Source of the DNA: an uncultured Lachnospiraceae bacterium
GTDB lineage: Bacteria; Bacillota; Clostridia; Lachnospirales; Lachnospiraceae
Length of the DNA stretch: 43,628 bases
Reading direction: 5' to 3'
Assembly (NCBI GenBank): GCA_945827805.1
Contig: CALZOU010000007.1
Coordinates: forward strand, 1-43,628
The translations under genes were made by a program, and so were the position numbers. Below the pieces are notes generated by a model. The model saw only the letters and a program-made list of their open reading frames with translations. It made no database searches and was not told where the DNA came from. Every line of letters starts with the position of its first letter. The first letter of the stretch is position 1. Positions 6,721 through 24,121 of the stretch are shown here, one piece after another.

Positions 6721-7542
6721 TCAAGGAGACAATCCACAAACACCCCATCCATATTCAATATCATACCCCAACGCTCCCCGGTCCTCCGCTTCGTCCATAA
6801 GATACTTCTCAAATTCTTCCGGGGATTCCCAGGTTCGTCTGGCGCATATACCTGCGATCCGTGCCGCCGCATAAGACGTACCCTGACTCTCCCCGTCAAG
6901 GGAACTCGCAGGTGCCGTTACAAATACACTTTCATTTTTCTGACTGTAAGAAGCTGCCTCTCCGTTTTCCGTTACAGTGCCTACACCTATCACACTGTCA
7001 TAAGCCGCAGGATACAGCATCTTGTTCTTTTTGTATGTTTCGCCAAGATTTCCTGCCGCGCTGATCAGAATTACCTGATTACTCGCTGCATACTCCACCG
7101 CATTCTGCAGTTCTTCACTGTCCGGAATACTGAATGCCATACATACCACACGACAATCATATGTATCTACTGCGTCATAAATTGCCCGGATCACTTCTTC
7201 CGGCTTTGTATCCTGCTTGTCACCGGAGATTTTCAGAGGAACAATCACCGTCTCAGGAGCATATTGACAAATCACCTCTGCGATCCGTGTGCCATGACCG
7301 ATATCATCGTCTGTATGTATGGATTCATCAAGATAATTCCACCCCTCATCAATTGGAAGCGATTTCTCCGGACTGATTCCGGAATCCAATACCGCGACCC
7401 GTACAGCCGCAGATTTGTCTGAGTCAGTGATTCCACAGCCTGAAAGTATGAATAACAGCAATATAAGAAGACATCCTTTCCATTTTGCACGCATTCTTCT
7501 CGCCTGCCTTCTATCCATCCAAATAAATGACTCGTATCTCAC
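6721..7542 (-). CDS. Subtilisin-like (S8) serine protease lipoprotein
   Basis: The 273-aa product has an N-terminal hydrophobic stretch ending in a lipobox (LLLFILSGCG, Cys36), so it is predicted to be lipid-anchored outside the membrane. The catalytic triad is complete: Asp53 (VAVLDSGI), His83 (DIGHGTRIAEVI) and Ser223 (GTSYAAARIAG), with the oxyanion Asn165 in SAAGN. It is short for a subtilase and has no obvious pro-domain. The GTG at 7542 overlaps the upstream stop (GTGA), giving coupling, but ATGs at residues 9 and 17 are also possible; the start is uncertain. It is the last gene of the giant surface-protein operon. A role in processing or releasing those proteins is an inference from position. 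Confidence 0.88.
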   Translation of the reverse strand: MRYESFIWMDRRQARRMRAKWKGCLLILLLFILSGCGITDSDKSAAVRVAVLDSGISPEKSLPIDEGWNYLDESIHTDDDIGHGTRIAEVICQYAPETVIVPLKISGDKQDTKPEEVIRAIYDAVDTYDCRVVCMAFSIPDSEELQNAVEYAASNQVILISAAGNLGETYKKNKMLYPAAYDSVIGVGTVTENGEAASYSQKNESVFVTAPASSLDGESQGTSYAAARIAGICARRTWESPEEFEKYLMDEAEDRGALGYDIEYGWGVCGLSP

Positions 7543-8045
7543 GGATTACTCTGAATAGTAAAAACTATTTCCGCACGATGCAGCGGTGTTAATTGCTCAT
7601 CCTCGCTAAAACACTCATATCTCAGGATAGAATTCGGGTATTCTCCTTCCGGCAGAGCTTTCTTTATTTCTATATCGTATAACCCTTTTCCCGGAGAAAT
7701 CAGACCGGACTGAAACAGCAGCGTCTCATCCTCCAGCAGGATGCTGATCCTAAAATAACAGTTATTCTTACCTGGATTATATAAATTGACTTCCTGTTTT
7801 TTCTGGTCGGCTTTAAATATCATCTTCTCTGTTCCCGGCACAGCAATGCTCCCCTGAGCAGATGTCTCATTCTGCTTCTGTCCGGAGCCTTCCGGCAAAG
7901 AGGCTTCCGGCAGATCAACGGCATTTTCTTCAAGAGGCAGGGGAGTTTTTTTCTCCCCTGTCTTTACCACGCCAATAACGCCAACCATTGTCAGCAGACC
8001 CAGCATCAATACCACAAATATGATACTCTGTTTTCTTTTTATCAT
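7539..8045 (-). CDS. Membrane-anchored extracytoplasmic protein of unknown function
   Basis: This 168-aa protein has a basic start and one N-terminal membrane helix (IIFVVLMLGLLTMVGVIGVV), no lipobox, and a Pro/Glu/Gly-rich linker of about 50 residues. A C-terminal beta-sandwich-like domain follows (VNLYNPGKNNCYFRISILLE, then LISPGKGLYDIEI and LHRAEIVF). The domain pattern is familiar from small proteins encoded beside large Clostridia surface proteins, but I cannot name the family. AGGAGA precedes the ATG. The gene sits between the 2710-aa protein (33-bp gap) and the subtilase (4-bp overlap). It could tether or chaperone the giant proteins at the membrane, which lack anchors of their own; that is inference. 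Confidence 0.75.
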   Translation of the reverse strand: MIKRKQSIIFVVLMLGLLTMVGVIGVVKTGEKKTPLPLEENAVDLPEASLPEGSGQKQNETSAQGSIAVPGTEKMIFKADQKKQEVNLYNPGKNNCYFRISILLEDETLLFQSGLISPGKGLYDIEIKKALPEGEYPNSILRYECFSEDEQLTPLHRAEIVFTIQSNP

Positions 8046-8078: not shown

Positions 8079-11000
8079 TTAGTTTTCCACCATTCTGGCA
8101 TTAAACAGCAATCGCAAAGGCTTATCCTCTTCCTTTTCGCTGGTCTCAAAAAACTCAGCAAGAGAGAATGATTTCTTTTTTTCCGGTGTGGAAGAAGAGA
8201 TTACCATCATCTGACCAGACTCATCATCCACAGAACCATCATTCTGTTTTTCTGCTCCGATCTCTGTAATTCTGATGCGCACCTCGCGATTCTCCAGAGA
8301 AATATTTTCACTGACAGAAATCTGGGCCGTATCCTCTTCTCTGTTTATTTCATCCGGAATGATCAGCTCATAGGTTGTGGTAACCTCCATTGTCTGTGCC
8401 ACTGATGGTGAGAAAGCATCGTTTCCGCCATATCTCGCCTGCACCGTATACGTTCTCGCTGCCTGCAAACCGGTAAACTGATGATCTGACTGCCATGGAC
8501 CCTGATCAATACGATACTGGGTCTCACCGTATAGCTTGACATCTTCTTCGGGCAATGGTTTTACCCATACCATGGAATCGGTTACATAGGCCCTTGTCTC
8601 AGGAGGTGCCGGAATAGTTTTTTCAATCTGACATACCTGTTTTTCCGATTGTCCTCCATTATGATCTGTAGAGTTTTCGTCCGGAGTGAATACTGCATAA
8701 ATAACAGATTCACCCAGCTGAAGGTTCTTTGCAGAAATGGATGCCTGTCCATTTTTCAACTGCACGCTTTGTTCCAGAACATCATTGATATAGAAATCAA
8801 CCTGCCCTGTCTGTGCTGTTTCATCCACACCGGTAACGGTTGCCGTCAGACGAAGTTTCTGGCCCGACTCAACATGGAAAAGCTTTTTGATATTAGCCCA
8901 TACTCCTGTCTCTTCTTCGGCCGAAACGGTAAGACGGACAACTGGCTCTGCTCGATTAACTGTAATATCCATGGCCGCATCTGCTTCTGCCTGATAATTA
9001 CTGTCTCCCGTGGACGCAAGTACGGTGTATGTTCCTGCATGAAGCAGCGGTACCTTTTCTTTTGTCCGCAGTACGGCTTCGTGTCTTGTGCCTTTACTGT
9101 CTGTCCACGACGCGGATAACTGATCCATAAGATCTTTTCCCGTATACACAAGTTTCGGCACTTCTTCCCACTGGATCTGGACAGATGCCGGTAAGATACG
9201 ATATGTCCGTTTTGCGTTTTCCGGCAGTATGTAGTTATGATTTGTGGCCTCTACTGCTGCTGCTGTATATTCACCTGCATTAATGGCTGTATTTCCCTGC
9301 AGGCGAATCTCACACTTATCTTCGCCCACCAGATTTACCGCATATGTAGCGACAGCAGATGCTGTACCGTCATATGTTCTGTCCTGATATCCTTTCCACT
9401 CCAACTCCAGAACTTTAGGAACAACTGTCACTTTCTGCGAGTCGCTTGAAGCATTGTACACGTCATCTTCTGCTTTTGTTGCCGTGATAACCGCAGTTCC
9501 CACTTTTTTGATCACGGCTTTGCCATCTTCAACCGCTACTACCGACGGATCACTGCTTGTAAACGTAATATCTCCCTGACCACTGCCTCCACTGGCCAAT
9601 ATGTTCAGAGGTTCGTCACCATATACGGCATTATCAGTCATAGAAAGTTCGATCGGCTGTTGTGCTGCTTTCCCCGTAGCTGTAATCCGAACTTCTGTAC
9701 TTTCACTCACCATCCAGAGATCGTTCTCTGCATAGCGAACCTGATAATATCCGCTCTTTAATCCGGTGATCGTGCTTCCCTGTACAGGTGTCCAGTGATA
9801 GCCACTGTCACTGCTGTATTCCATTTCTTCTGTAACACCTGCGATCGTACCGTCAGTCGTGACCGTTGTCTGTGTATTGGAAGAAACAATCCCTGCCGGT
9901 TTATCACGTTTACCTTTATTTACGGTCAGCACAGCTGTTACTTCTGTTTCTTGATAACTTGCTGTTGCTTCTGTCTTCAGACGTATCTTAAAGTCTCCCG
10001 CTTTGGTCACGGTCAACCGGGAACCTTCCAATACACCTTCTCCGCTGCCGCCGATCAATGTATAAGCTGCCTCGCCGGCATTGGGATCAATCGTAAACAG
10101 TGCTGACACATCAATAGCATCCCCACCATACGTACAGGTCATATCTTTGGCCGCTGTATTCGTGCCCAGCTTCTGCACATTGATCGTCTGCCTTGCCCTG
10201 AGCTCATCGGGATTACGAACACCTTCCGGAAGAACCAGATCACCGTATACCGTACAATGCCCGGTAAGTTTTTCATTAAACGCACCTTTTGTCCACTGTA
10301 CCTGCATATCCACTGTCTCACCGTTATTCAGGGTCACTTGTACGTGATCCGGCAGTTTCAGCTGATCAAAGGTGGTTCCATAATCTGTAGAAATATCATT
10401 TAATTCAGCAATAGTCACTGCTTTTACCAGCAGATCAAAGGTAAATCGATCAGAAACCTCATACTCTCTTAACGTTCCGGTACTATCATGATAAGTTCCC
10501 CGTCCCGAGATTTCGACGGAAAAAGCGGCGTCAGGACGCTTCTTTAATACAAGGAACTGTCCGTTAACCTCCAGATAGTCATTTTCCGAAATACTCCACT
10601 CGACAGTCAGATCTTCGGGTGCTCCCGGAATACTGATATTCGCAACAGTGCTGCCTACGTCAGCATTCTCATCTATCACCAGATCAGATACCTGGATCTG
10701 TGCCGGTGTTATAGGCTGCTGCGCCACAGATACCATCAATGTCTGTTCCAATGAATAGCTGTCCGTCAGCGGATAACTTGCCATAACTACCGCATCTCCG
10801 GCATTTACCGCAGTAAGTGTATTTTCTTCCAGGGTAACAGCACCATCTCCCATCAGTACAGAACACTCAATCTTACTGCTGTCCAATGTAATCGTATTGC
10901 CATTTGTCATGACACCATAGTAACTCAGTTCGGCCTGATTACCCGCATACATGGTTTCCTTCTGTGTATCTGCGTCCACGATCATGCCATCGACCGCAAT

Positions 11001-14000
11001 GGAAAGCCCGGTCAGACCACTTAATTCCCCGGGAATTATCTCACACAGCTGACTGGTTGTATTTCCTGCCCGATCCTGTGCGCTTACCGTGATCTGCTGC
11101 GTATTGCCATTACCTGTACCTGAATACTCAAACCGTCCGTTTGTCACCGGTACTGTCTGCCCGTTTATGGTTACAGCACTGTTGTTTTCCGCAGTACCCG
11201 TAATGGTATACCGGTTATCCCGGCTCTGCACCACCACATTATCCAGCATCAGCTCCGGAGGCGTCGTATCGACTTCTACCGTCACGGTATTCTGCGTATA
11301 ATCTCCCTGTCCATTGATCGCGCATATGCCAATGTTGCTGCCGCCGTCGGCAAGGGTAAACGTATGAACTCTCGTTTCACCCGCATTCAGACTATGATCA
11401 AGGATTGCGCCTGATGCATCCGTAAGATACTCTCCGTCTACATCCAGAAGATAGCTGATATCCTGATCTGCAGTAATCGACAGCTGAATCTCCGAAGTAT
11501 TTGTCTGACCGGTAAAGGCATCATCCACCTGCGTCTGCGCTGCATCCCGGCTGTCATCCGAGGTTTTTGCGGCTGCTGTCAGAGATTTTCCATTTACTGT
11601 ATACGTAAGCTTGGCCGGGTTCGCCTCCGGTAATAACACCGGTTCTGTCTTCGCCACTTCTGAAACGAACGTGGTTCCGTTCACCGTTTTGCTTGCAGAG
11701 ACCACACCTATGTATTTTTTCCCGGGTATAACACCTACCTTCTTTGAGCCACTGATGATACGTTCTCCATTTGCATCTGTGACATAATGACCTTCACCAT
11801 CCTGCAGATATTCCGCTTCCTCAGCCGTATAGCCAAAATAGATCTCATGGTCCGTCGTGGTCATGCCTGTGACACCTTCCACAGCGTTGCCCTCTTCGTC
11901 TAACAGTGTAACAAAATACTCTTCAGTATCACCGGAAGCATCCCATTTCATCAAGAACTGACCGTCGCCTCCCGGTGTCATGGTAAATCCGGTTACCGCC
12001 TGAGGTGTATTCGGATTAACATACGTAAACGCATTATGTGTTAAATTCGATCCAACAGCATTTCCCGTATCATCATTAAGCACAAGACGTACCATGTATT
12101 CTCCGGACTGTGTATTTTCCGGAAGCTTTATCTGCACACTGCCGCTGGCTTTTCCTTCTCCATCCGGCGCGATCTCAACCGCTGATTCCGTGATCTTAAA
12201 TCCCGACGGTTCCGCTTCCATTCTGGAACGATAATACTCGCTGAGTTCATCTTCTGACAGTCTGTCCAGCTCCTCTTCTGCCAGCGTAGCCGGCTCCTGG
12301 GAAATCTCACTGGTATTTACAAGATACGCATCCAGTGAAGCCCCCGGCTGAGCACCGGATACACTGTATGATACATTGATTGTTCCGTCATTTTCTGTAA
12401 CAGAGGATGCCTGGATTCCTGCCACCTCATCTACTTTATGCGCTTCCATATTGAGCGGAATATCTGATTTTACGACCCATTTTCCGTTGACCGGTGCCAC
12501 GAGGCCAATGCCAAGATAATTCTCTTCTGTTCCGCTGTCCGACTCATCTGCGGATATGGTCTGCAGGATACAGTTTTCATCCTCTGTCAGCTGTACTTTC
12601 CTGCCGCTGGGATCATAAAGGGAAACGTGGTTCAGAATGCTGTCTCCATCCGCCAGCTGACTCTTATCGTAACCGATCTGGAAAAGACTGTAATCATTGT
12701 CTTTTATCGAAACCTCATAGCTATTGAGATTTGCCCTTGCGGATTTCTTCACAGCCATATCCGTCATATTGTCGCCAAGCAGCATGACGCCGTCCACATT
12801 GCTGTCACCGGTATCATACGTCACTGCCAGCGCATTTTCCAGATCTCCTTCCGGAATGGAGAATTGTTCGGCCAGATATTCCCAGTCGTCATAGAATTTG
12901 ACCTTTTTATCTGCCCAGTAATAGGACACCGAGATCGGTATGCCGATGACCCGGATACCTGCATAAACACGGTAACTGGACAGCTCTGCCATAACGGACA
13001 GAAGCTCTTTACCGCCAACCACAGGAACATAATCGGGAATAAAAATTCCGACATATGCCTTTCCTCCCAGGGAAAGGGGACCAAATATCGTATCCAGCCG
13101 CGGATCAGCCACCAGCCAGAAGCCTGTCTCACCACGGACAATGCCCAGAATATTTACTTTGGAATCCATGCCCAGATCCAGACAGGGATATACGCTTCCG
13201 TCGGCCATCTTTGTTCCGTAAAGCTTAATATGAGCGCCGATAGATTCAAAGACTTTCAGGCCTATGATCTTACCTTCTGCCGCTTCAAAGCTGACACCCT
13301 GACCGCCTACACTCATATTGACATCATCTACGGTAAAGGTAAACGTCGTCGGATCCACATATCCGGTATACACTGTAAGCGTAGTGGGCGGGAAGATATT
13401 AAAGTTTCCTTTGATCGTATCGTAAAGACCGGAAATACCACCACCCATTTTGTTCAGGAATCCAACAGGTCCCAGCGGGATTTTTACCACATCGCCGCCC
13501 ATGTAGAAGTACATGGAATCCGGATAGCAGTTTCCGCTGTCCTCCTTAACGAGAGAGAAGCCAAAACTACACTCAAATGTATCGCCGACTTTAACATTAC
13601 CGTCAACACCGATGAACCATCCCGGATAGTCAATAGAATCTATCTTAAAGCTTGCTCCGGCTCCGGCTTTGGTAAATTTGGGCATGGAGTCATCCGTAAG
13701 ATTGATGCCTCCCTCAGCCTTTACCCCCACAAGGTAAGCGCTGTTATCACTTTCTTTCTGACCATAACGCATTTCTTCCAGATTCAGTTCCAGGAAATTA
13801 TCTGTTTTCTGGCCTTCTCCGATACTGTTCAGATCATCCCGCTTATTATATTTTTGCTCCAGCGCAGATTGCGGCTCGTCATCATCGTCACCCTTTGCCG
13901 CCTTGCTCCACCATGGTAGGCTTACGGAAATGCTTCCGCCTAAAGAAATGGTTTCCACACCAAGAACTGCATTGCTGATCTCTACCTGAAAACCGGTAAG

Positions 14001-16211
14001 TGCTCCCACCGTTTTTGTCAGCTGACTACCGACAACACCGGCCGGCGTAATGATCTCCACGTCATCTGTTCTCTGGTAATCCTCTCCGATCTCACCATCG
14101 CTGATGTTGTCGTTAAGGTCTTCGTTATTGCTGTCATCGTCAACGCCGCGCAGCTCGTAATTCTTTTCATCTTCCAGGCAGATATAAAAATCACCTACAT
14201 GGAACAGATAATCGCCTACATATAGCCCTCCCTCACCGGTAAATACCAGAGCATCGCTGACCTTACCAAACCATTTCCATCCCGAAAACTGAGATTTAAA
14301 CTGATCTTTCAGACCGTCCGTCTCTGGATGATCTGAATAACGTGTTACCGTAATCACCGCTTCTTTGTTAAAACTGTTGCGATAACGGATCGCTGAATTT
14401 ATGATGGCGCCATTTGCAATGGTATAGTATTCATGGCCGCCCATCTCATATGTACCGATGGTGCCCCGGATCGTCATCAGGATATTGCTGCTTTCCTCTT
14501 CGGTCATGGCCGCCATATCTTCTTCATTCTCCAGAAGACGCACGCCATAATACTTTTCACCTGCCTCATCCGTCATCTGACCCACAAGCATAACGCCATA
14601 TTCAATACGGTCAAACTTCGGATCGTCCGTCATCTGCAGAGCCACGGACAGATTGCCATATCTCTCTGCATTCAGACACAGTCTGCATTCTCCGGGAGCA
14701 TACGAAAACTCCTGATTCCCCGGAAGTGAAACTGTCATTGTGGAATCATCGGCAATAGCTATGGACGCTTTGGAAACAGGTACATTCTGTTCTGACAATG
14801 GATCTGTAAGAGTCATAGTCCAGTCATTGTCTGCCTGAAGGAAGGAGAAACCGGTACCTTTTAACGTAACTTTTTTTTCAACACTTCCCGTATATAACGT
14901 TGCCGGAGCCACTTCGGTGATCTGAAGCTTTGGCAGTTCACCTTTACGGCCGGGAATGATCACATATTTCATTCCTTCTGCCGTGATATCTCCTGATGTC
15001 ACCTGAACCCCAAGGTGTGCCACCGTCGTTTTGTCCTGAAGGGACGGAAAGACTTTAAATGTGGCTGTATAACTGCCTCCTGCATCCAGATCGATATAGG
15101 CCGTGTCACTGCCCTGGGCTATACTGAATTCATCAGAAAGCCCCAGTTTTACAGTCACATCCTCCATTACCTGATCCGTATCATTCGTCACCTGCACAAG
15201 GACATCAAACGGATCATTATCCGCTGAGAAAGCTTCCCCGCTGCTGTCCAGCGAAAGCTTCTGGGGCGCATTGATCTGAACGCTGATCCCCTCATCACCT
15301 ACTGTATCGGATATACTTCCTATACCATAGTAAGTTTCATAGATACGGTGTTCTCCTGCTGCCAGCGAAGAAGCATCATAATATAAAGCAACCGCACTGT
15401 CTGCACGTTCATATGCATTCTTATTGGTTGTAAAATTCAGATAGGGGTTGATCTCGCAGTCCCATTTGGTGCCGGACAGGGTATTCCAATGGGCTGCCAC
15501 CATTTTATCCGGGCGAAGAGCATCTTCCCAGCCATACAACACGCCTCTTGCTGTCACATTTGCGGCATACTGCCGATCCGAAGACTGCCACACCATGGGA
15601 ACCTGCGCACCGGAAAACTCTGTTTCATTGGTAACATAGGTACGTTCCGCCAGCATAGCCGAGCCGTCATTTGACCCCAGCATGGTATCCAGCAAAATAC
15701 GGCTTCCCAATTGCACAGCTTTTCCGGAACCATTGGCCACTTCGTAACGGATCCGCACATTTCCCACATCCGGATCCGCAAAATCCGTGACCAGTCTCAG
15801 CTGCTGTGTTACCTGTACGCCGTTAACCTGCCAGATCGTGGTGGCTGTTGTACCCTGTACACTGGTGGGGGTAACAATACCTCCCTGTACACCATAATCA
15901 TTACCAAAAATGTAATCTTTCCCATCTATGCGGATCGTTGTGAAACTGGTATCCGGAGTGTTGTCAAAGAAACTCAGCAGACGGTTACGATCACTGGTCT
16001 TGCTGGGCAATCCATCTTCCGTAGACACCACATAACGTCCTGTACTGCGATTGACCCGTACCTGTACAAGTGAGTTTCCCACTGTAAGTACGGCATCCGT
16101 ACGGAGCAAAGGCGCTGCTTCTGCAACAACATTAAGCGAAACAGGACAGACCATCGCCGCACACAGGACAACCGCAATAAATTTTCGTAAATACTTCTTT
16201 ATTCTGTTCAT
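8079..16211 (-). CDS. Giant secreted multidomain Ig-like/MBG surface protein (2710 aa)
   Basis: A signal peptide (basic MNRIKKYLRK, hydrophobic core, likely cleavage after VVAEAA near residue 33) is followed by a beta-rich N-terminal domain (to about 310), CARDB-like and IPT/TIG-like segments (about 330-520), and an acidic linker (KGDDDDEPQ, near 770). An unusual glycine/aromatic beta-rich region spans about 770-1110. Next come FN3-like (near 1420) and Ig-like domains (DTTPPELML near 1649), a Big_2-like motif (SDPSVVAVEDGKAV, near 2223) and an MBG/YDG-type motif (TYDGTASA, near 2280). It ends NARMVEN, with no LPXTG, SLH or membrane anchor. GAGGT precedes the ATG at 16211, 24 bp after the 1897-aa gene. 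Probably a fibre or adhesin-like exoprotein; ligand unknown. Domain limits are approximate. Confidence 0.85.
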   Translation of the reverse strand: MNRIKKYLRKFIAVVLCAAMVCPVSLNVVAEAAPLLRTDAVLTVGNSLVQVRVNRSTGRYVVSTEDGLPSKTSDRNRLLSFFDNTPDTSFTTIRIDGKDYIFGNDYGVQGGIVTPTSVQGTTATTIWQVNGVQVTQQLRLVTDFADPDVGNVRIRYEVANGSGKAVQLGSRILLDTMLGSNDGSAMLAERTYVTNETEFSGAQVPMVWQSSDRQYAANVTARGVLYGWEDALRPDKMVAAHWNTLSGTKWDCEINPYLNFTTNKNAYERADSAVALYYDASSLAAGEHRIYETYYGIGSISDTVGDEGISVQINAPQKLSLDSSGEAFSADNDPFDVLVQVTNDTDQVMEDVTVKLGLSDEFSIAQGSDTAYIDLDAGGSYTATFKVFPSLQDKTTVAHLGVQVTSGDITAEGMKYVIIPGRKGELPKLQITEVAPATLYTGSVEKKVTLKGTGFSFLQADNDWTMTLTDPLSEQNVPVSKASIAIADDSTMTVSLPGNQEFSYAPGECRLCLNAERYGNLSVALQMTDDPKFDRIEYGVMLVGQMTDEAGEKYYGVRLLENEEDMAAMTEEESSNILMTIRGTIGTYEMGGHEYYTIANGAIINSAIRYRNSFNKEAVITVTRYSDHPETDGLKDQFKSQFSGWKWFGKVSDALVFTGEGGLYVGDYLFHVGDFYICLEDEKNYELRGVDDDSNNEDLNDNISDGEIGEDYQRTDDVEIITPAGVVGSQLTKTVGALTGFQVEISNAVLGVETISLGGSISVSLPWWSKAAKGDDDDEPQSALEQKYNKRDDLNSIGEGQKTDNFLELNLEEMRYGQKESDNSAYLVGVKAEGGINLTDDSMPKFTKAGAGASFKIDSIDYPGWFIGVDGNVKVGDTFECSFGFSLVKEDSGNCYPDSMYFYMGGDVVKIPLGPVGFLNKMGGGISGLYDTIKGNFNIFPPTTLTVYTGYVDPTTFTFTVDDVNMSVGGQGVSFEAAEGKIIGLKVFESIGAHIKLYGTKMADGSVYPCLDLGMDSKVNILGIVRGETGFWLVADPRLDTIFGPLSLGGKAYVGIFIPDYVPVVGGKELLSVMAELSSYRVYAGIRVIGIPISVSYYWADKKVKFYDDWEYLAEQFSIPEGDLENALAVTYDTGDSNVDGVMLLGDNMTDMAVKKSARANLNSYEVSIKDNDYSLFQIGYDKSQLADGDSILNHVSLYDPSGRKVQLTEDENCILQTISADESDSGTEENYLGIGLVAPVNGKWVVKSDIPLNMEAHKVDEVAGIQASSVTENDGTINVSYSVSGAQPGASLDAYLVNTSEISQEPATLAEEELDRLSEDELSEYYRSRMEAEPSGFKITESAVEIAPDGEGKASGSVQIKLPENTQSGEYMVRLVLNDDTGNAVGSNLTHNAFTYVNPNTPQAVTGFTMTPGGDGQFLMKWDASGDTEEYFVTLLDEEGNAVEGVTGMTTTDHEIYFGYTAEEAEYLQDGEGHYVTDANGERIISGSKKVGVIPGKKYIGVVSASKTVNGTTFVSEVAKTEPVLLPEANPAKLTYTVNGKSLTAAAKTSDDSRDAAQTQVDDAFTGQTNTSEIQLSITADQDISYLLDVDGEYLTDASGAILDHSLNAGETRVHTFTLADGGSNIGICAINGQGDYTQNTVTVEVDTTPPELMLDNVVVQSRDNRYTITGTAENNSAVTINGQTVPVTNGRFEYSGTGNGNTQQITVSAQDRAGNTTSQLCEIIPGELSGLTGLSIAVDGMIVDADTQKETMYAGNQAELSYYGVMTNGNTITLDSSKIECSVLMGDGAVTLEENTLTAVNAGDAVVMASYPLTDSYSLEQTLMVSVAQQPITPAQIQVSDLVIDENADVGSTVANISIPGAPEDLTVEWSISENDYLEVNGQFLVLKKRPDAAFSVEISGRGTYHDSTGTLREYEVSDRFTFDLLVKAVTIAELNDISTDYGTTFDQLKLPDHVQVTLNNGETVDMQVQWTKGAFNEKLTGHCTVYGDLVLPEGVRNPDELRARQTINVQKLGTNTAAKDMTCTYGGDAIDVSALFTIDPNAGEAAYTLIGGSGEGVLEGSRLTVTKAGDFKIRLKTEATASYQETEVTAVLTVNKGKRDKPAGIVSSNTQTTVTTDGTIAGVTEEMEYSSDSGYHWTPVQGSTITGLKSGYYQVRYAENDLWMVSESTEVRITATGKAAQQPIELSMTDNAVYGDEPLNILASGGSGQGDITFTSSDPSVVAVEDGKAVIKKVGTAVITATKAEDDVYNASSDSQKVTVVPKVLELEWKGYQDRTYDGTASAVATYAVNLVGEDKCEIRLQGNTAINAGEYTAAAVEATNHNYILPENAKRTYRILPASVQIQWEEVPKLVYTGKDLMDQLSASWTDSKGTRHEAVLRTKEKVPLLHAGTYTVLASTGDSNYQAEADAAMDITVNRAEPVVRLTVSAEEETGVWANIKKLFHVESGQKLRLTATVTGVDETAQTGQVDFYINDVLEQSVQLKNGQASISAKNLQLGESVIYAVFTPDENSTDHNGGQSEKQVCQIEKTIPAPPETRAYVTDSMVWVKPLPEEDVKLYGETQYRIDQGPWQSDHQFTGLQAARTYTVQARYGGNDAFSPSVAQTMEVTTTYELIIPDEINREEDTAQISVSENISLENREVRIRITEIGAEKQNDGSVDDESGQMMVISSSTPEKKKSFSLAEFFETSEKEEDKPLRLLFNARMVEN

Positions 16212-16235: not shown

Positions 16236-19200
16236 TTATTCTTCTGCAAATACCTGTACAAGCTTTGTATTTCGTTCCTGATCCTGCACAAGTAAGGTAA
16301 AGTATCCTGTTTCCGGGAAAATATAGCTTCCGTCCAGCAGCGAATCTGCGATCTCATTACCTTTCAGCTTAAAATCTCCCATAGATGCTTTTCCTTTTAA
16401 CATTTTTACGGATACATCACCCTCCTGATGAATAAGTCCAAACTGGTTTTGGCCGGTTTTGATACAGAGTGCCTTATCAAAATAGAGCTGCCCGTTCAAC
16501 TGCACCTGGAATTGCTCCGGATCATAGACATACACAGTTCTTTCTATTACCGATGTATTGCCTACGGCATCCACAGCAGTGTACCTGAGCGTATACTTTC
16601 CCTGTTTCTGTGTATCTACCTTTCCCTCAATACTGAGAGGCGTCTCTGCAGGATGATCATCCCTGACATCCACACCATCCAGGGGATCAAAAGGCTGACC
16701 CACAGGAATACAGAGTTCTGTATTTTCCATAGAGATCTCCGGTGCTGTATGATCAATGCAGTCTATAACGATATCTGCAAAGCCTCGATTACCAAGATCG
16801 TCCTGGGCCCACAGGCGGGCAGTAATATTTTCATCATATACCATCTCAGCGCTGGTCTCATCCACAACGGTCATTCCGTTGGGCCATGTCACAGGCTCGT
16901 CCGCAGATACGGTAACCTTCACAGGTTCGCTGCCAAGCTCAGTGCGGTCAGCCTGAACCGTAAGTTTAGGGCCGGTTTTATCAATACAGGTTACCTCAGC
17001 GGTAATCGTATCCACATTTTTCCCTGCCGCATCCGTATACTGGAAAGTGAAGATTCCGTTTTGCCGGAAGGTATAGAATCGGCTTCCATTATTATTCAGT
17101 ACACGGATGGCCGCATTCTCATCTGTTGTGCAAAGCTCCACCTGCACATCATCGCTGGTTCTTTCTGTTGTGGAATACTTCAGCTGTACTTCCGGAAGAT
17201 CCGGAGAGATCCAGTCAACCTGTGCGGTAACACTGGCGGTGTTTCCGGCCCGGTCTTTTGCAGTAAAGCTGTATGTACCGTTTTCTGTGAATTTCCAGCT
17301 TGAAATACCTTTCTCCCAGCTGACACGCTCGTCTGCGCTGGCACTGACATACACAGAGAAGGGTGTTTTGGTAACATTGTCCGGCGTATAGAACAGACTG
17401 ATCTCCGGGGCATCCCGGTCAATACGCTCCATGGTATACGTATATTCTGACTCGTTTCCTGCCTGATCCTTTAAAACAAACGTATACTTTCCGTTTTCCT
17501 TGAACGTATGCGTCATATCCTCTGCGCCGCTTGCGTCGTCCGAAGCATGAAGGGTTATTTCCACATCCGTATTGGTCCATCCTGCTACGGAAGCTGTCAT
17601 ATATCCCGTTGGCGCCACCTTGTCTATCCTGCTTACAGTGACAGTGGCTGTATTCTGGTTACCGGCGGCATCCGCAAAGATAAACACATGATTTCCGTTG
17701 GCTGTAAACAGATGTGTTATGTCTTTCTCGGGCATGGTTACCGGACTGATGCTGTCAAACTCCAGACGGACTGCCACATCCTGGTTTGTCCAGTGATCCG
17801 GATCATATGCTTTACCGTCATCGGTGGTAAATATTGCCTTAGCTTCCGGCTTTTTCTTGTCGATCCAGTCTACACTGACGGTTTTAGACCCCACATTTCC
17901 GGCCTCATCTTTAAAGTAAAACGTATGTTCTCTATTTTCCGTAAACACAAAGGTGTGTCCGACAGCATCTTCTTCGTATTTTACATTTCCATCTTCGTCT
18001 TCAACCTTTTTCAGATAGGTAATCGTTTTTGCCAGATCATCCTTCGCCTGTATCTGCACCGTCACATCCTGATTTGTCCAGTCTTTTGCGGAATACTGAA
18101 TATTATCATCTTCACAGGAAGGTTCCTCTGTATCCACCGCCAGCAAAAGACTTCCGCTGCTGGTGAGATTAATTTCTGTATCCGTGATCTGGTATTCCAG
18201 TACGCCATAGGTGGTGACCCGATAGGTATCTCCCTCGTTTGGCACCAGCTCGATCCCTTCAGCCTCCAGAATACGTTCTCCCATAATATCCTTACCATTA
18301 AAGGTCAGACTGTCATATTTCTGCGCCGCGTTGGTTATCTTCAAAATCACCGTCACCGGCTCCTTTGTCCACTGACCGTCGGACAAAAGTTCTCCCGAAG
18401 CACTCCTGATCTCTGTATCCAGTTTTGGAAGATTCCGGTCTATCCAATCCACCTTGGCTTCAATACTTCCGGTATTTCCCGCCTCATCCGTAAATGTAAA
18501 CGTAAAACTGCCATTCTCCTTAAATGTATGCGTAAAACTGCCATTCTTCGGAGAGGTAACTGTTACGGCACTGTCATCCTTCAGAGAAAGGGTCGCTGTG
18601 ACATTCTCACTGGTCCGCTTTGCCGGGGAATAGCTCACCGAAGCTTCCGGCGGTGTATTGTCCAGTACTACGGTAAGTGTGCGGGATCCGCTTTTATTCC
18701 CCAGATTATCCTCAACATATACTTCAATGGTATAACTGCCGTCAGCCAATGTGGGGAGCGTCTCTTTCAGCGAGCTCATTTTCTGCCATTCTTTGCCGGA
18801 AGGATCTTGTGTATCCTTCGGATAAACACGCCAGAAGCAGTCTGCCAGATCTTTATCTTCGCTCTGCACAGAAAACTCAGCTGTCTGATGAGGTCTTGCA
18901 TCGGCCTGAGCAGAAGAAATCGTAAATTCGGGAGCTGTTTTATCGATCCAATCTACTTTTGCTGTAGCACTGCAGGTATTTCCGGCTTCATCCTTCGCCT
19001 GGAACGTATATTCTCCGTTTGCTGTAAACTCATGGCTGGCTGTAACCTCATGGCTGTCCGGAGTAATCCATTCACCGTCAGAAAGCGAAGCTGTAACTAT
19101 TACATTCTGATTTGTTCTTTCAGTTTGAGAATATTTCAGAGTAATGACCGGAGGCGTAATATCGTAAACAACCGTTGTTTCTGCGATCTCAGACACATTG

Positions 19201-21929
19201 CCCACCGCATCTTTAAAGCGCGCCTGAATGGTATGTTCTCCTTCTGTTGCCTCAAAGGTGATCGCCTTTTTCTCCACATATTTTTCCCATTCAGTCCATG
19301 ACTCATCGTCTACAGAGTCTACAGAAAACTGCATCTGAATATCTCCATTTTCCGAATAATCGTCTTCAACCGAAACATTCACATTGATGCTGTTGATGTT
19401 TGTAGTATTCTTTCCTTCCTTTTCTATGGTTCCTTTCGGAGCGTTCTTATCCAGAGCAAAGACCTTCGAGGTTCTGATCCCGGTGTTTCCGGCCTCGTCG
19501 CTGGCCTTAACGTGAAAATACGTATCATCCTGCAGTCTGATCTGCACACTGATATTCTCGGGATCCTCTGCCCTGGTCCATGTTTCCACAGAAGATGGAT
19601 CCGCACTTCCACTGCATCCATATTCCACGTTCAGCGCTGCTTTTGCAGTTATGGAGTCATTTACCGCTGCGTTTACAGAATAAATACTCTTTCCTTCATT
19701 TCCCGCATTACCATCGGGATCAATGATGATTTCCGGAGGTGTATTATCCAGCAGGCAGTTTCTGTATTTCACCGTCTGATTCCCCGCCGAATCGGTAGCC
19801 CGGACATACAGCCGCCATTCTCCGTCTGCATTTTCTGGAGAAGAGAGCGTCTCAGCATCTGTCGTTTTCCAGTCTGCCTCCGCCGGATCACTGTTTCCGG
19901 ACTTCCACTGGAATTCTACTTTTTCAACAGCAGTAAGGGTATCACTGCATTTTGCCTGCATAATATGACTTTTGGCATAGCCGCTGCTGCTGCAGGTAAT
20001 GGTTACCGTCGGCGGTTCACAGTCAACCAATACTTCCTGTTCGCAGGTATCGCTGTTGCCTGTCGCATCTTCTGCATAGATTTTCAGAAGATACGTGCCG
20101 CTCAATGAAGGCAGAGGAATCTCCTGTCCTTCGTCAAACTTACCGGATCCTGTCAATTGGTTGTTTTCATTAAACCACTGATATTTTCGAAGGAAAACAC
20201 CGCTGCCGCTGTCTGAAATCTGCGGGGTGACACGGACTACCTTACCGCCCATTTCTTTTGTGGAAAGGGTAATCTCCGGAGGTGTTACATCACGTCTTGC
20301 CGCGGTACTGCTGCACACAGGTACAGCGATATTTCCCACGTTATCCTGGCATACAATCCACAGGTACCAGCTGCCATCGCCGGCGGGTGCCGGTATCTGA
20401 TAACCCCCCGCTTCACCATCCATCACATCTGTAAACCGATCCGGTGCTTTCGCTGACTGCACGTCCCATGCATACTGAACAAGCTTCACACCGCTTCCGG
20501 ATATACTCTGTGTATCACTCTGTATATCGTCAGACACTGCAACTGTTACCACACTGTCTTTACCCATCCAGTTCTCGTCAAATTCCGGTATGGTCACTAC
20601 AGGAGGGCAGGTATCAATGTTTACCGCATATGTATCCATATATGTTTTATGAGAAGCCGTAAACTGAGCATATCTTGTGGACGCTGTAGCATCCTGCTTT
20701 ACACCATCCACGATCCCGTTCAGATTAAAACTTTGAATGGCCAGACCATTCACATCATCGCCTTCATTCACCGTGTAGGAAAAACTGGCCAGATCCGTCG
20801 TCGTAGCTGTGAGAATATAGGCTGCCGTTTTTCCATTGGAAAAAGTGACCGTTGGATTTCCCGTCACTTTTATGGTCTCATGAAATTTCAGGTGGAGCTT
20901 GATGGTATCGCCTGCTTTTAATACTGTATCCCGGCTGAAGCCCTCAGACGTAACACCTGTCAGTTCCGGCGGGCGATTGTCCATATAAAGGCTTCCGCCG
21001 GAAGCCAGACCGGAATTCAGATTTTTTACGCCATCTTCCGTAAGTCCGGCTGTGGTACTGTTTCCTGCATCATCCGCTATAGTAAATGCGCTGACACCTC
21101 TGAAAGCAATATTACGGTTGTCGCTGATAACCTCTCCATCTCTGGGGATCGTGTATGTATAGCTTATTGTAGAAGAAGAACCGTCTGCAGTGGACTGTAC
21201 CCCGCCTGTGCTCACGCCTGAGCTGTAAGGCTCGATCCAGGGAGCACCCTTATCTTTAGTCAGATCAACACTGGCTGTGATCCGCTCACTGAAATGCAGA
21301 GTGTATGTAACCTTTGTTCCCGCGGCATGCGGTTTATTCCAGTCTACACCGTCGTTGGTGGTTGCAGTGATATTCAATATTTTGGGCGAAACCTCATCCC
21401 GGATGATCATTGAGCAGTTTTGAATCTCCAGATCACCTTTTGTGCCAATATGGTTATAGACGTAATATTGAATCCTATATGTATTTTTCGGGATTTCTCT
21501 GTCATTAACTGACAGAATGTTCCAATGATGGGATACAGAATAGCTGTCACTCTCCGTTTTCCAGGTGCTTCCTACCTGATTCCCATTCTTATCAAAACAC
21601 TTTACTTCCAGTTTTCTGGTGTTTGTCCGGGAGCCATTGGCTCCTACCTTTACCGACGCATTTAATTTTAATTCTCCCTGATTTGCACGATTCTGAGCCG
21701 CCGCATCCAAATACACATTCTGGGTAAGATTCAACGTGTATTTTCCAGATTCATTCCAGTTTCCTCCTGTCAGACAATTCTGACCATACTTTCCCGTTGT
21801 GAACTGCACATCCGGACGATTCTGATCTGCCGCATGTACTGTTTGAGGCAGACACCACACCATCGCAAGAACCATCAACTGTACGATCAACCATGTGATT
21901 ATCATCCTTTGTTTTATCTTCTGTATCAT
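16236..21929 (-). CDS. Giant secreted Ig-like repeat protein (1897 aa)
   Basis: A signal peptide (MIQKIKQRMIITW then a long hydrophobic core, cleavage near VHAAD, residue 34) leads into a beta-sandwich domain (VQFTTGKYGQNCLTGGNW). Bacterial Ig-like modules fill the rest (about 180-1800). At least eight tandem units of roughly 80-110 residues between about 995 and 1730 share a linker such as VDWIDKTAPEF, VDWIDRNLPKL or CIDHTAPEI and a core like FKENGSFTFTFTDEAGNTGS. The last unit (DDHPAETPLSI... VDAVGNTS) resembles DUF5011-type Ig domains. No LPXTG, SLH or C-terminal membrane helix is seen. The ATG at 21929 has a GGAGAGGT site. This is the first gene of the four-gene surface operon and probably builds an elongated stalk. 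Confidence 0.87.
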   Translation of the reverse strand: MIQKIKQRMIITWLIVQLMVLAMVWCLPQTVHAADQNRPDVQFTTGKYGQNCLTGGNWNESGKYTLNLTQNVYLDAAAQNRANQGELKLNASVKVGANGSRTNTRKLEVKCFDKNGNQVGSTWKTESDSYSVSHHWNILSVNDREIPKNTYRIQYYVYNHIGTKGDLEIQNCSMIIRDEVSPKILNITATTNDGVDWNKPHAAGTKVTYTLHFSERITASVDLTKDKGAPWIEPYSSGVSTGGVQSTADGSSSTISYTYTIPRDGEVISDNRNIAFRGVSAFTIADDAGNSTTAGLTEDGVKNLNSGLASGGSLYMDNRPPELTGVTSEGFSRDTVLKAGDTIKLHLKFHETIKVTGNPTVTFSNGKTAAYILTATTTDLASFSYTVNEGDDVNGLAIQSFNLNGIVDGVKQDATASTRYAQFTASHKTYMDTYAVNIDTCPPVVTIPEFDENWMGKDSVVTVAVSDDIQSDTQSISGSGVKLVQYAWDVQSAKAPDRFTDVMDGEAGGYQIPAPAGDGSWYLWIVCQDNVGNIAVPVCSSTAARRDVTPPEITLSTKEMGGKVVRVTPQISDSGSGVFLRKYQWFNENNQLTGSGKFDEGQEIPLPSLSGTYLLKIYAEDATGNSDTCEQEVLVDCEPPTVTITCSSSGYAKSHIMQAKCSDTLTAVEKVEFQWKSGNSDPAEADWKTTDAETLSSPENADGEWRLYVRATDSAGNQTVKYRNCLLDNTPPEIIIDPDGNAGNEGKSIYSVNAAVNDSITAKAALNVEYGCSGSADPSSVETWTRAEDPENISVQIRLQDDTYFHVKASDEAGNTGIRTSKVFALDKNAPKGTIEKEGKNTTNINSINVNVSVEDDYSENGDIQMQFSVDSVDDESWTEWEKYVEKKAITFEATEGEHTIQARFKDAVGNVSEIAETTVVYDITPPVITLKYSQTERTNQNVIVTASLSDGEWITPDSHEVTASHEFTANGEYTFQAKDEAGNTCSATAKVDWIDKTAPEFTISSAQADARPHQTAEFSVQSEDKDLADCFWRVYPKDTQDPSGKEWQKMSSLKETLPTLADGSYTIEVYVEDNLGNKSGSRTLTVVLDNTPPEASVSYSPAKRTSENVTATLSLKDDSAVTVTSPKNGSFTHTFKENGSFTFTFTDEAGNTGSIEAKVDWIDRNLPKLDTEIRSASGELLSDGQWTKEPVTVILKITNAAQKYDSLTFNGKDIMGERILEAEGIELVPNEGDTYRVTTYGVLEYQITDTEINLTSSGSLLLAVDTEEPSCEDDNIQYSAKDWTNQDVTVQIQAKDDLAKTITYLKKVEDEDGNVKYEEDAVGHTFVFTENREHTFYFKDEAGNVGSKTVSVDWIDKKKPEAKAIFTTDDGKAYDPDHWTNQDVAVRLEFDSISPVTMPEKDITHLFTANGNHVFIFADAAGNQNTATVTVSRIDKVAPTGYMTASVAGWTNTDVEITLHASDDASGAEDMTHTFKENGKYTFVLKDQAGNESEYTYTMERIDRDAPEISLFYTPDNVTKTPFSVYVSASADERVSWEKGISSWKFTENGTYSFTAKDRAGNTASVTAQVDWISPDLPEVQLKYSTTERTSDDVQVELCTTDENAAIRVLNNNGSRFYTFRQNGIFTFQYTDAAGKNVDTITAEVTCIDKTGPKLTVQADRTELGSEPVKVTVSADEPVTWPNGMTVVDETSAEMVYDENITARLWAQDDLGNRGFADIVIDCIDHTAPEISMENTELCIPVGQPFDPLDGVDVRDDHPAETPLSIEGKVDTQKQGKYTLRYTAVDAVGNTSVIERTVYVYDPEQFQVQLNGQLYFDKALCIKTGQNQFGLIHQEGDVSVKMLKGKASMGDFKLKGNEIADSLLDGSYIFPETGYFTLLVQDQERNTKLVQVFAEE

Positions 21930-22116: not shown

Positions 22117-23382
22117 ATGATACAAATCTTATCCGCCATACATCATATGACGACCATGATGTTTGGCATATTCATCTCTGCTTTCATGCTGGGTGTGCGC
22201 CAGAATCGCAAAAATGTCCTGGTATTGTCCGGCTTTTTCTGCTGCGATGGATTGCTGTTTCTGATCATTCTTGGCCTGTCTGACCACACGATTGCCAATC
22301 AGCTGTACCCGCTGATCGTACATCTGCCGCTGATCGTATTTCTCACTCTATACTACCGTTATCCAATCCTGTCCAGCTGGTTATCCACTCTCTCCGCCTA
22401 CCTGTTCTGCCAGGTCAGCAACTGGGTAGGACTGCTTGTATTGACCATCACCGATGAAGAGTGGTGCTATTATACAGCCCGGATCATTACGACGATCATC
22501 ACCTTTATTCTGCTTTCCTGCCTGGTGTGCCGCACCACGTCGGCTGTCTTTGCCAAGGATCGGCGCAGCCTGTACATTTTTGGCTTTCTGCCCCTGGTGT
22601 ACTATGTTTTTGACTATATTTCCACCAAATTCTCCAGCCTGCTCTACTCCGGAAACAAAGCTGTGGTGGAATTCATGGGCTTCATTTTCTGTATCTCATA
22701 TGTCGTGTTTCTTCTGGTCTATTTCCGGGAATACGAGAAAAAGCAAGAGATCAGCCAGTACAATGCTCTTATGGAAATGCAGCTGTCCTCCCTCCAGAAT
22801 GAGATAGAACAGGTGCATCTCTCCGAAAAGACACTTTCCATCCTGCGGCATGATATGCGCCATCATCTGAATATCCTTCTGACCCAGCTTCAAAATGGCA
22901 ATACCGACCAGGCCATGGACTATATCCGGAGGATCAACGATGCCTATAACGAAACGATTATTACCGCTTACTGTAAAAACGATATGGTCAACTCTGTTAT
23001 TTCCATCTACCAGACTCGTTTTTCCCTGAAATCCATGCAGCTTATCTGCGATATTTCCATTGGTGAACACCTTCCCTGCTCTGAGATTGCCTTCTGCGCG
23101 ATTCTGTCCAATGCGCTGGAAAACGCGATGCATGCACTGGAAAAAAACGATCCCGCCAAAAAATGGGCAACTCTTTCTCTCTCCTGCAGAGATAAGAATC
23201 TGCTGCTCAGGCTGGAAAATCCCACCAGTGAGCCGCCCCGGTTTGTGGACGGCATCCCTGTTTCCGACAAAAACGACCACGGTATCGGTGTAAAAAGTAT
23301 TATCTATTATGTGAATCAACTCAACGGGCAGTACCATTTTTCTCTGTCCGGAAACAGTTTTGTTTTGAGGATCATTATTTAG
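22117..23382 (+). CDS. AgrC-like GHKL sensor histidine kinase
   Basis: The 421-aa protein has a polytopic N-terminal sensor of about six membrane helices (residues 8-205), a coiled-coil linker (EKKQEISQYNALMEMQLSSLQ), and a phospho-acceptor His245 in SILRHDMRHHLNIL. A GHKL ATPase domain follows with N box SNALENAMHAL (331-341) and G box DHGIGVKSI (387-395). This is the layout of AgrC and related peptide-sensing kinases, which signal to LytTR regulators. The ATG at 22117 has only a weak ribosome site. The partner regulator follows after 28 bp. No AgrB or AgrD-like gene is in the window, so the signal is unknown. It is divergent from the surface operon. Confidence 0.9.
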   Translation: MIQILSAIHHMTTMMFGIFISAFMLGVRQNRKNVLVLSGFFCCDGLLFLIILGLSDHTIANQLYPLIVHLPLIVFLTLYYRYPILSSWLSTLSAYLFCQVSNWVGLLVLTITDEEWCYYTARIITTIITFILLSCLVCRTTSAVFAKDRRSLYIFGFLPLVYYVFDYISTKFSSLLYSGNKAVVEFMGFIFCISYVVFLLVYFREYEKKQEISQYNALMEMQLSSLQNEIEQVHLSEKTLSILRHDMRHHLNILLTQLQNGNTDQAMDYIRRINDAYNETIITAYCKNDMVNSVISIYQTRFSLKSMQLICDISIGEHLPCSEIAFCAILSNALENAMHALEKNDPAKKWATLSLSCRDKNLLLRLENPTSEPPRFVDGIPVSDKNDHGIGVKSIIYYVNQLNGQYHFSLSGNSFVLRIII

Positions 23383-23410
23383 TATCGGAAATACAAAAGA
23401 GAGGCTGATT

Positions 23411-24121
23411 ATGAAAATTGCTGTATGTGATGATGAAATACAATTTGTAAATGTGACTTGTGAAATGCTGAAAGAATGGGCATATCTAAGGGAAATACCG
23501 CTTACGCTCTGCCGCTTCACCAATGGGGATGATCTGATCATGGCCCACCAGCAGCAGTGCATGGATCTGATCCTTCTGGATGTGGTCATGCCGCTTTTGA
23601 ATGGTATCGATACTGCCAGAGAGCTTCGGGCAAAGGACCGGACAGTTCCTGTGATTTTTCTTACTTCTTCCAGGGAATTTGCCGTGGAATCCTACGATGT
23701 GAACGCCTTCCATTACCTGATCAAGCCGGTTTCCAAAGACCGGCTGTTTAATGTGATGGACCGTTTCCTGGAAACCTGCAAAAAACCGGAGGAAATCTTT
23801 ATGGCACAGACCGATACAGGATTTTGCCGAATTGTTATCAGCGATGTGGATTATCTCGAAGCACAGAATAAACATGTCCATGTCTGTCTCTCCAACGGTA
23901 CCTCCGTCCAGATCCGCGAACTGTTCTCCCGCTGCGAAGAAGTATTTTCGCCGGAGCGCGGCTTCTTTAAATGCCACCGCAGCTATATCGTGCAGCTTGG
24001 CCACGTGGCCCAGTTTACCAGGACTACAGTGATCACACATCACCATGCTTCTATCCCTATTTCCAGAAACAGCTATGTGGCATTTAAGGAAGCTTATTTT
24101 AATCATATGTTTCAGAGTTGA
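23411..24121 (+). CDS. LytTR-family response regulator
   Basis: The 236-aa regulator has a receiver domain with acidic pocket CDDE (6-9), phospho-acceptor Asp57 (LILLDVVMP) and Lys106 in LIKPVS. A LytTR DNA-binding domain follows (about 135-230, including DYLEAQNKHVHV, FFKCHRSYIVQL and ISRNSY). This is the AgrA/ComE architecture. GAGAGG lies about 10 bases before the ATG. It is the obvious partner of the upstream kinase and the best candidate to control the divergent surface operon. Its stop codon lies inside a palindrome (24116-24150). Confidence 0.92.
   Translation: MKIAVCDDEIQFVNVTCEMLKEWAYLREIPLTLCRFTNGDDLIMAHQQQCMDLILLDVVMPLLNGIDTARELRAKDRTVPVIFLTSSREFAVESYDVNAFHYLIKPVSKDRLFNVMDRFLETCKKPEEIFMAQTDTGFCRIVISDVDYLEAQNKHVHVCLSNGTSVQIRELFSRCEEVFSPERGFFKCHRSYIVQLGHVAQFTRTTVITHHHASIPISRNSYVAFKEAYFNHMFQS

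Follow-up and report, generated by a model that had tools for sequence, protein, structure and literature searches.

We identified, within a 2710-residue giant protein (A) of an uncultured Lachnospiraceae bacterium, a domain for which computation establishes existence, predicted strand order, amphipathicity and family spread, together with the linkage of its gene to a second giant gene (B). The models support one large sheet of 20 strands, neither Ig or jelly-roll domains nor disorder, and, judged by profile matching, the domain belongs to a family that is undescribed in the libraries searched. We give about an even chance to the reading that this non-enzymatic amphipathic meander acts as the scaffold or docking part of a paired giant surface system, a function that we infer. 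The window, meaning the whole 43,628-nt stretch of DNA analyzed, encodes both genes, and the features discussed below are collected in Table 1; residue numbers are those of A.

Table 1. Positions of the features in the window, with strand and basis of assignment
Feature	Position	Strand	Details and basis
Gene A, 2710-aa secreted giant	8079..16211	-	ORF; signal peptide by eye at N-terminus
Conserved N-terminal part of A	14001..16211	-	Residues 1-737; alignment of 19 relatives
Beta-sheet domain of A (predicted)	12876..14000	-	Residues 738-1112; 20 antiparallel strands; AlphaFold2 and 41-member alignment
Acidic disordered insert	13797..13910	-	Residues ~768-805, between strands 2 and 3; low pLDDT and alignment gap
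Gly-rich strand, short helix and Pro-Pro motif	13386..13463	-	Residues 917-942; conserved; family G-x-G-G-G-x-x-N-L-Y-D-T-I ... P-P
Conserved turn IPDYVPVVGG	13011..13040	-	Residues 1058-1067; family IPxxVPxVGG
Conserved domain end VSYYWADKKVKFYDD	12885..12929	-	Family GVTYYWGGxxxF; YYWG at 1097-1100
Gene B, 1897-aa secreted Ig-like giant	16236..21929	-	ORF; 24 nt upstream of A
B C-terminal module, ~94 aa	16242..16523	-	GQMK ... GxYTxYxxTQxR; conserved at exact C-terminus of B giants
168-aa protein	7539..8045	-	N-terminal membrane segment; 33 nt downstream of A
Subtilase (Peptidase_S8)	6721..7542	-	Pfam PF00082, 2.4e-27; overlaps 168-aa gene by 4 nt

Limits and composition of the domain

Alignments of relatives delimit the unit by an xGFxxxLxYG start and a GVTYYWGGxxxF end, which correspond to residues 738-1112 of the window protein (375 residues). 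An earlier note, made from the sequence alone, had described a distinct beta-rich region at residues 770-1110 of this protein. The region itself stands, as do the three peptides quoted for it, which map to 852-871, 1043-1059 and 1088-1107, but those limits miss the first two strands (740-751 and 754-764). Both strands precede the acidic linker that the note had placed before the beta region; this segment is instead a disordered insert within the domain, after strand 2, and is missing from several aligned relatives. Another acidic stretch lies N-terminal to the domain, at residues ~690-722.

The domain is enriched in Gly (13.1% vs 8.3% in the remaining protein) and in F/W/Y (12.3% vs 7.2%), and the sequence windows with the highest G+F+W+Y content of the whole protein fall within it (25.3%; mean 17.4%, sd 3.5). 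G, P, F, Y and W make up most of its conserved positions, which include, besides the motifs of Table 1, G at 740 and 829 and PD at 897-898; no conserved catalytic residue set was seen in the domain alignment. The enrichment agrees with the note's description of Gly/aromatic strands, although this is only part of the picture because L/V/I, accompanied by F, G and A, predominate on the hydrophobic face. A 430-aa open frame also runs antisense to the domain (12627..13919, plus strand), and probably arises incidentally from codon usage, because all conservation evidence supports the minus-strand frame.

Predicted structure and strand faces

AlphaFold2 modeling of a tight domain construct with 41 relatives returned antiparallel strands mostly of 8-17 residues each, with a mean pLDDT of 85.4, a pTM of 0.73 and 222 residues at or above 90. 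A longer construct (residues 531-1245, 29 sequences) agrees with this model, with a mean pLDDT of 70 overall and mostly 77-92 in the core. Structure prediction and a fold search, the checks that the note had proposed, thus gave a very large beta sheet rather than the ordinary Ig or jelly-roll domains or low-confidence disorder that it had named as refuting outcomes. Since the remaining protein is Ig-like, ordinary domains of this kind, or a disordered stretch, might have been misread as special; we consider this very improbable, given the single confident domain in AlphaFold2, the lack of any Ig or jelly-roll entry among the best Foldseek matches listed from the PDB, and the lack of any Pfam Ig match in the region among the relatives scanned. 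The note's view that such a fold would be unusual in a Gram-positive exoprotein was borne out, and it is moreover a conserved domain family and not a one-protein oddity.

The strands are amphipathic, one face being hydrophobic and the other charged. Their moment averages 2.92, compared with 1.49 +/- 0.25 for within-strand residue shuffles (maximum of 5000, 2.36), and the alternation is not due to chance because the moment far exceeds these shuffles. At mid-strand, the exposed face is 20% acidic and 15% basic, and the hydrophobic face is 29% Ala/Gly/Cys. Conservation is greater on the hydrophobic than on the charged face (2.03 vs 2.35 bits). We read the domain as a soluble sheet whose hydrophobic face would be buried, in a geometry that is presumed from the model.

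Foldseek comparisons with the PDB gave E values of at least 0.027 throughout, and the nearest partners were transmembrane beta-barrels (Tom40, porins and other outer-membrane barrels such as TonB-dependent receptors and LptD), with which the domain shares a long, many-stranded antiparallel meander. The even strand number and alternating faces would likewise suit a membrane-inserting barrel or pore. However, the best TM-score among the matches listed is 0.34, with an rmsd of ~11 A or more, a weak resemblance that does not amount to superposition. The absence of a Trp/Tyr girdle on the hydrophobic face (WY 6.1% at strand ends, 3.7% at mid-strand), together with the highly charged exposed face, argues against insertion, and the domain sits mid-chain in a secreted, Ig-rich Bacillota protein whose host lineages are presumably monoderm. 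A membrane barrel is therefore scarcely credible to us, and of the earlier suggestion of a large or barrel-like sheet, the large sheet holds while the likeness to barrels goes no further than these TM-scores. The viral structure library, searched with the domain, gave no match.

The same features invite comparison with the beta-groove carriers AsmA, TamB and Vps13, which also combine a meander with hydrophobic and polar faces. By analogy, a hydrophobic groove or cavity could bind or carry lipid-like ligands, in this case extracellularly; the length of the meander, its continuous hydrophobic face and its charged outer face are consistent with such a role, and ApoB-100 is among the weak fold matches (Foldseek rank 29, E 0.14). 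We nevertheless regard lipid carriage as unlikely. AsmA, TamB, Chorein_N and similar lipid-transfer Pfam families are absent among the matches at E 0.1 in 29 relatives, no other sequence match to a lipid-transfer family was obtained, no AsmA/TamB/Vps13-type protein is among the best 50 Foldseek matches, a five-strand-plus-loop repeat was not recognized, and the share of small residues at mid-strand is as in tight packing. TULIP-type P47/OrfX lipid binders (PMC6791001) were also considered and were discarded, since a long helix is absent from the model.

Database searches and spread of the family

Pfam gave no family match in the domain region, either in the window protein or in 29 relatives scanned at E 0.1. 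With NCBIfam and PHROGs run on all aligned members, the domain also remained unmatched, and the three libraries yielded only single-member chance matches. Neither single-sequence nor profile searches of the PDB returned anything usable, and the literature we searched describes neither the domain nor the gene pair.

A single-protein search detected the domain in 7/348 genomes of the window's family; with that of the window itself left aside, identities were 27-36%. Profile searches found it in 8/338 genomes of that family, 6/392 of the order and 7/399 of a phylum sample, and in two further families, in 35/151 genomes (a family whose genomes are large, at 5-8 Mb) and 9/101 genomes; the profile of one genome scan was built with three closer relatives. 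Among the named records that carry the domain are Hominisplanchenecus faecis and MAGs of Lachnospiraceae from buffalo, sheep and goat. The ORFs are large (~960-3300 aa, leaving out the likely chance match in genome G094 and frames cut by contig or locus ends or by frameshifts). By these matches, the domain is a patchy but conserved family in Bacillota, carried within large ORFs. The 483-aa match in G094 (L007/L013) looks like chance, being a short match to an unrelated protein. Among the plasmids, phages and viral contigs searched, no relative of the domain was found. A divergent subfamily of the domain occurs in four loci that have no B partner (L009, L012, L020 and L081, in genomes G372, G274, G014 and G1275); L009 and L012 have extra beta-rich sequence ahead of the domain.

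Several of the domain-bearing relatives are rumen and gut MAGs, and the proteins are Ig-rich exported giants with a conserved aromatic motif, YYWG, on the surface side. These observations could fit an adhesin module that binds carbohydrate or a host or plant surface. On the other hand, Pfam offers no carbohydrate-binding family match for the domain, which also occurs in the family of large 5-8 Mb genomes, and we think this function improbable.

The partner gene and its neighborhood

Gene B also carries an N-terminal export signal, recognized by eye, and A and B are most likely Sec-exported because both bear such signals. The C-terminus of A has no recognized anchor. The remainder of A and all of B resemble the Ig-like/FN3/Big giant exoproteins of Gram-positive bacteria: Pfam matches are Big_3_5, Glucodextran_B and Big_4 in A, with Ig-like/Big modules only past residue 1350, and Big_13, Bact_surface_Ig-like and others in B. 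Unlike in those giants, there is a strict partner gene, and no Pfam or NCBIfam model covers any of residues 1-1115 of A. The N-terminal part of A is strongly conserved among relatives (BLAST E down to 1e-92) and has no Pfam, NCBIfam or PDB family match. The Lepto_OmpL47 and barrel_OmpL47 models of NCBIfam match gene B, at its Ig-like repeats, and not the domain.

A B-type giant lies directly upstream of A in 26/26 loci with usable upstream sequence, the window included, and in each of them this giant ends with the ~94-aa module. The module was found in 3/61 relatives, all three of which are also A-bearing, and in 18/25 genomes picked for a domain match (including G094, a probable chance match). 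In the two-copy genomes G423, G1088 and G1125, both the A domain and the B module occur twice. Outside the divergent subfamily, the module tracks the domain both in its presence and in its number of copies. Genomes G1102 and G1157, which hold divergent domain copies, have no B match either; together with that subfamily, they show that some versions of the domain do not require B. Where it holds, the strict pairing suggests that A and B act together.

On the minus strand, the gene order is B, A, the 168-aa protein, which has no family match, and the subtilase. A profile match and a D-H-S triad place the last gene in Peptidase_S8; the window enzyme carries D, H, N and S motifs (DSG, GHGT, GTS) and a lipobox-like LSGC. 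A subtilase lies downstream of A in the window and in nine further loci (L033-L036, L038, L040, L042, L043 and L047), with Peptidase_S8 confirmed by Pfam in those tested, while most domain-bearing relatives have no such neighbor. The tethers vary, with the lipobox-like motif in the window, SLH domains in L038 and a C-terminal hydrophobic segment in L035, L036 and L040. In Hominisplanchenecus faecis (L044:14302-14940), a weak sortase-like ORF, below the Pfam cut-off, replaces the subtilase after the giant gene. A gene pair for a GHKL-type histidine kinase and a LytTR response regulator (22117..24121, plus strand) lies next to B and A in divergent orientation and might control their expression.

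Proposed role of the domain

For a rigid, non-enzymatic sheet of 375 residues placed between the Ig repeats and the conserved N-terminal half of the protein, the simplest role is that of a scaffold or docking part. Under this scaffold reading, residues 738-1112 would form one soluble, non-enzymatic domain, an antiparallel meander curled or folded over with its conserved hydrophobic inner face probably buried and its charged face outward. A and B would be a paired, exported surface system, presumably co-transcribed. The domain would serve as a rigid platform that holds the N-terminal half of A together, binds B through a putative contact, or both, and from which the Ig-like repeats extend outward. 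In some lineages, including that of the window, the neighboring surface-type subtilase would probably trim the exported proteins. A bolder version, which we hold tentatively and as the less probable one, would make the undescribed fold, an open or flattened meander, the hub of an undescribed two-giant surface machine in Bacillota, with the B module docking on A and the pair matured by a dedicated subtilase.

In summary, proteins otherwise labeled Ig-like or hypothetical contain a domain family whose boundaries and motifs are clear and whose model is confident. Its almost one-to-one association with a second giant gene and the C-terminal module of that gene provides a concrete, testable two-component surface system, which may matter for gut, rumen and soil Bacillota, and the domain, if solved, may add a new large-sheet fold.
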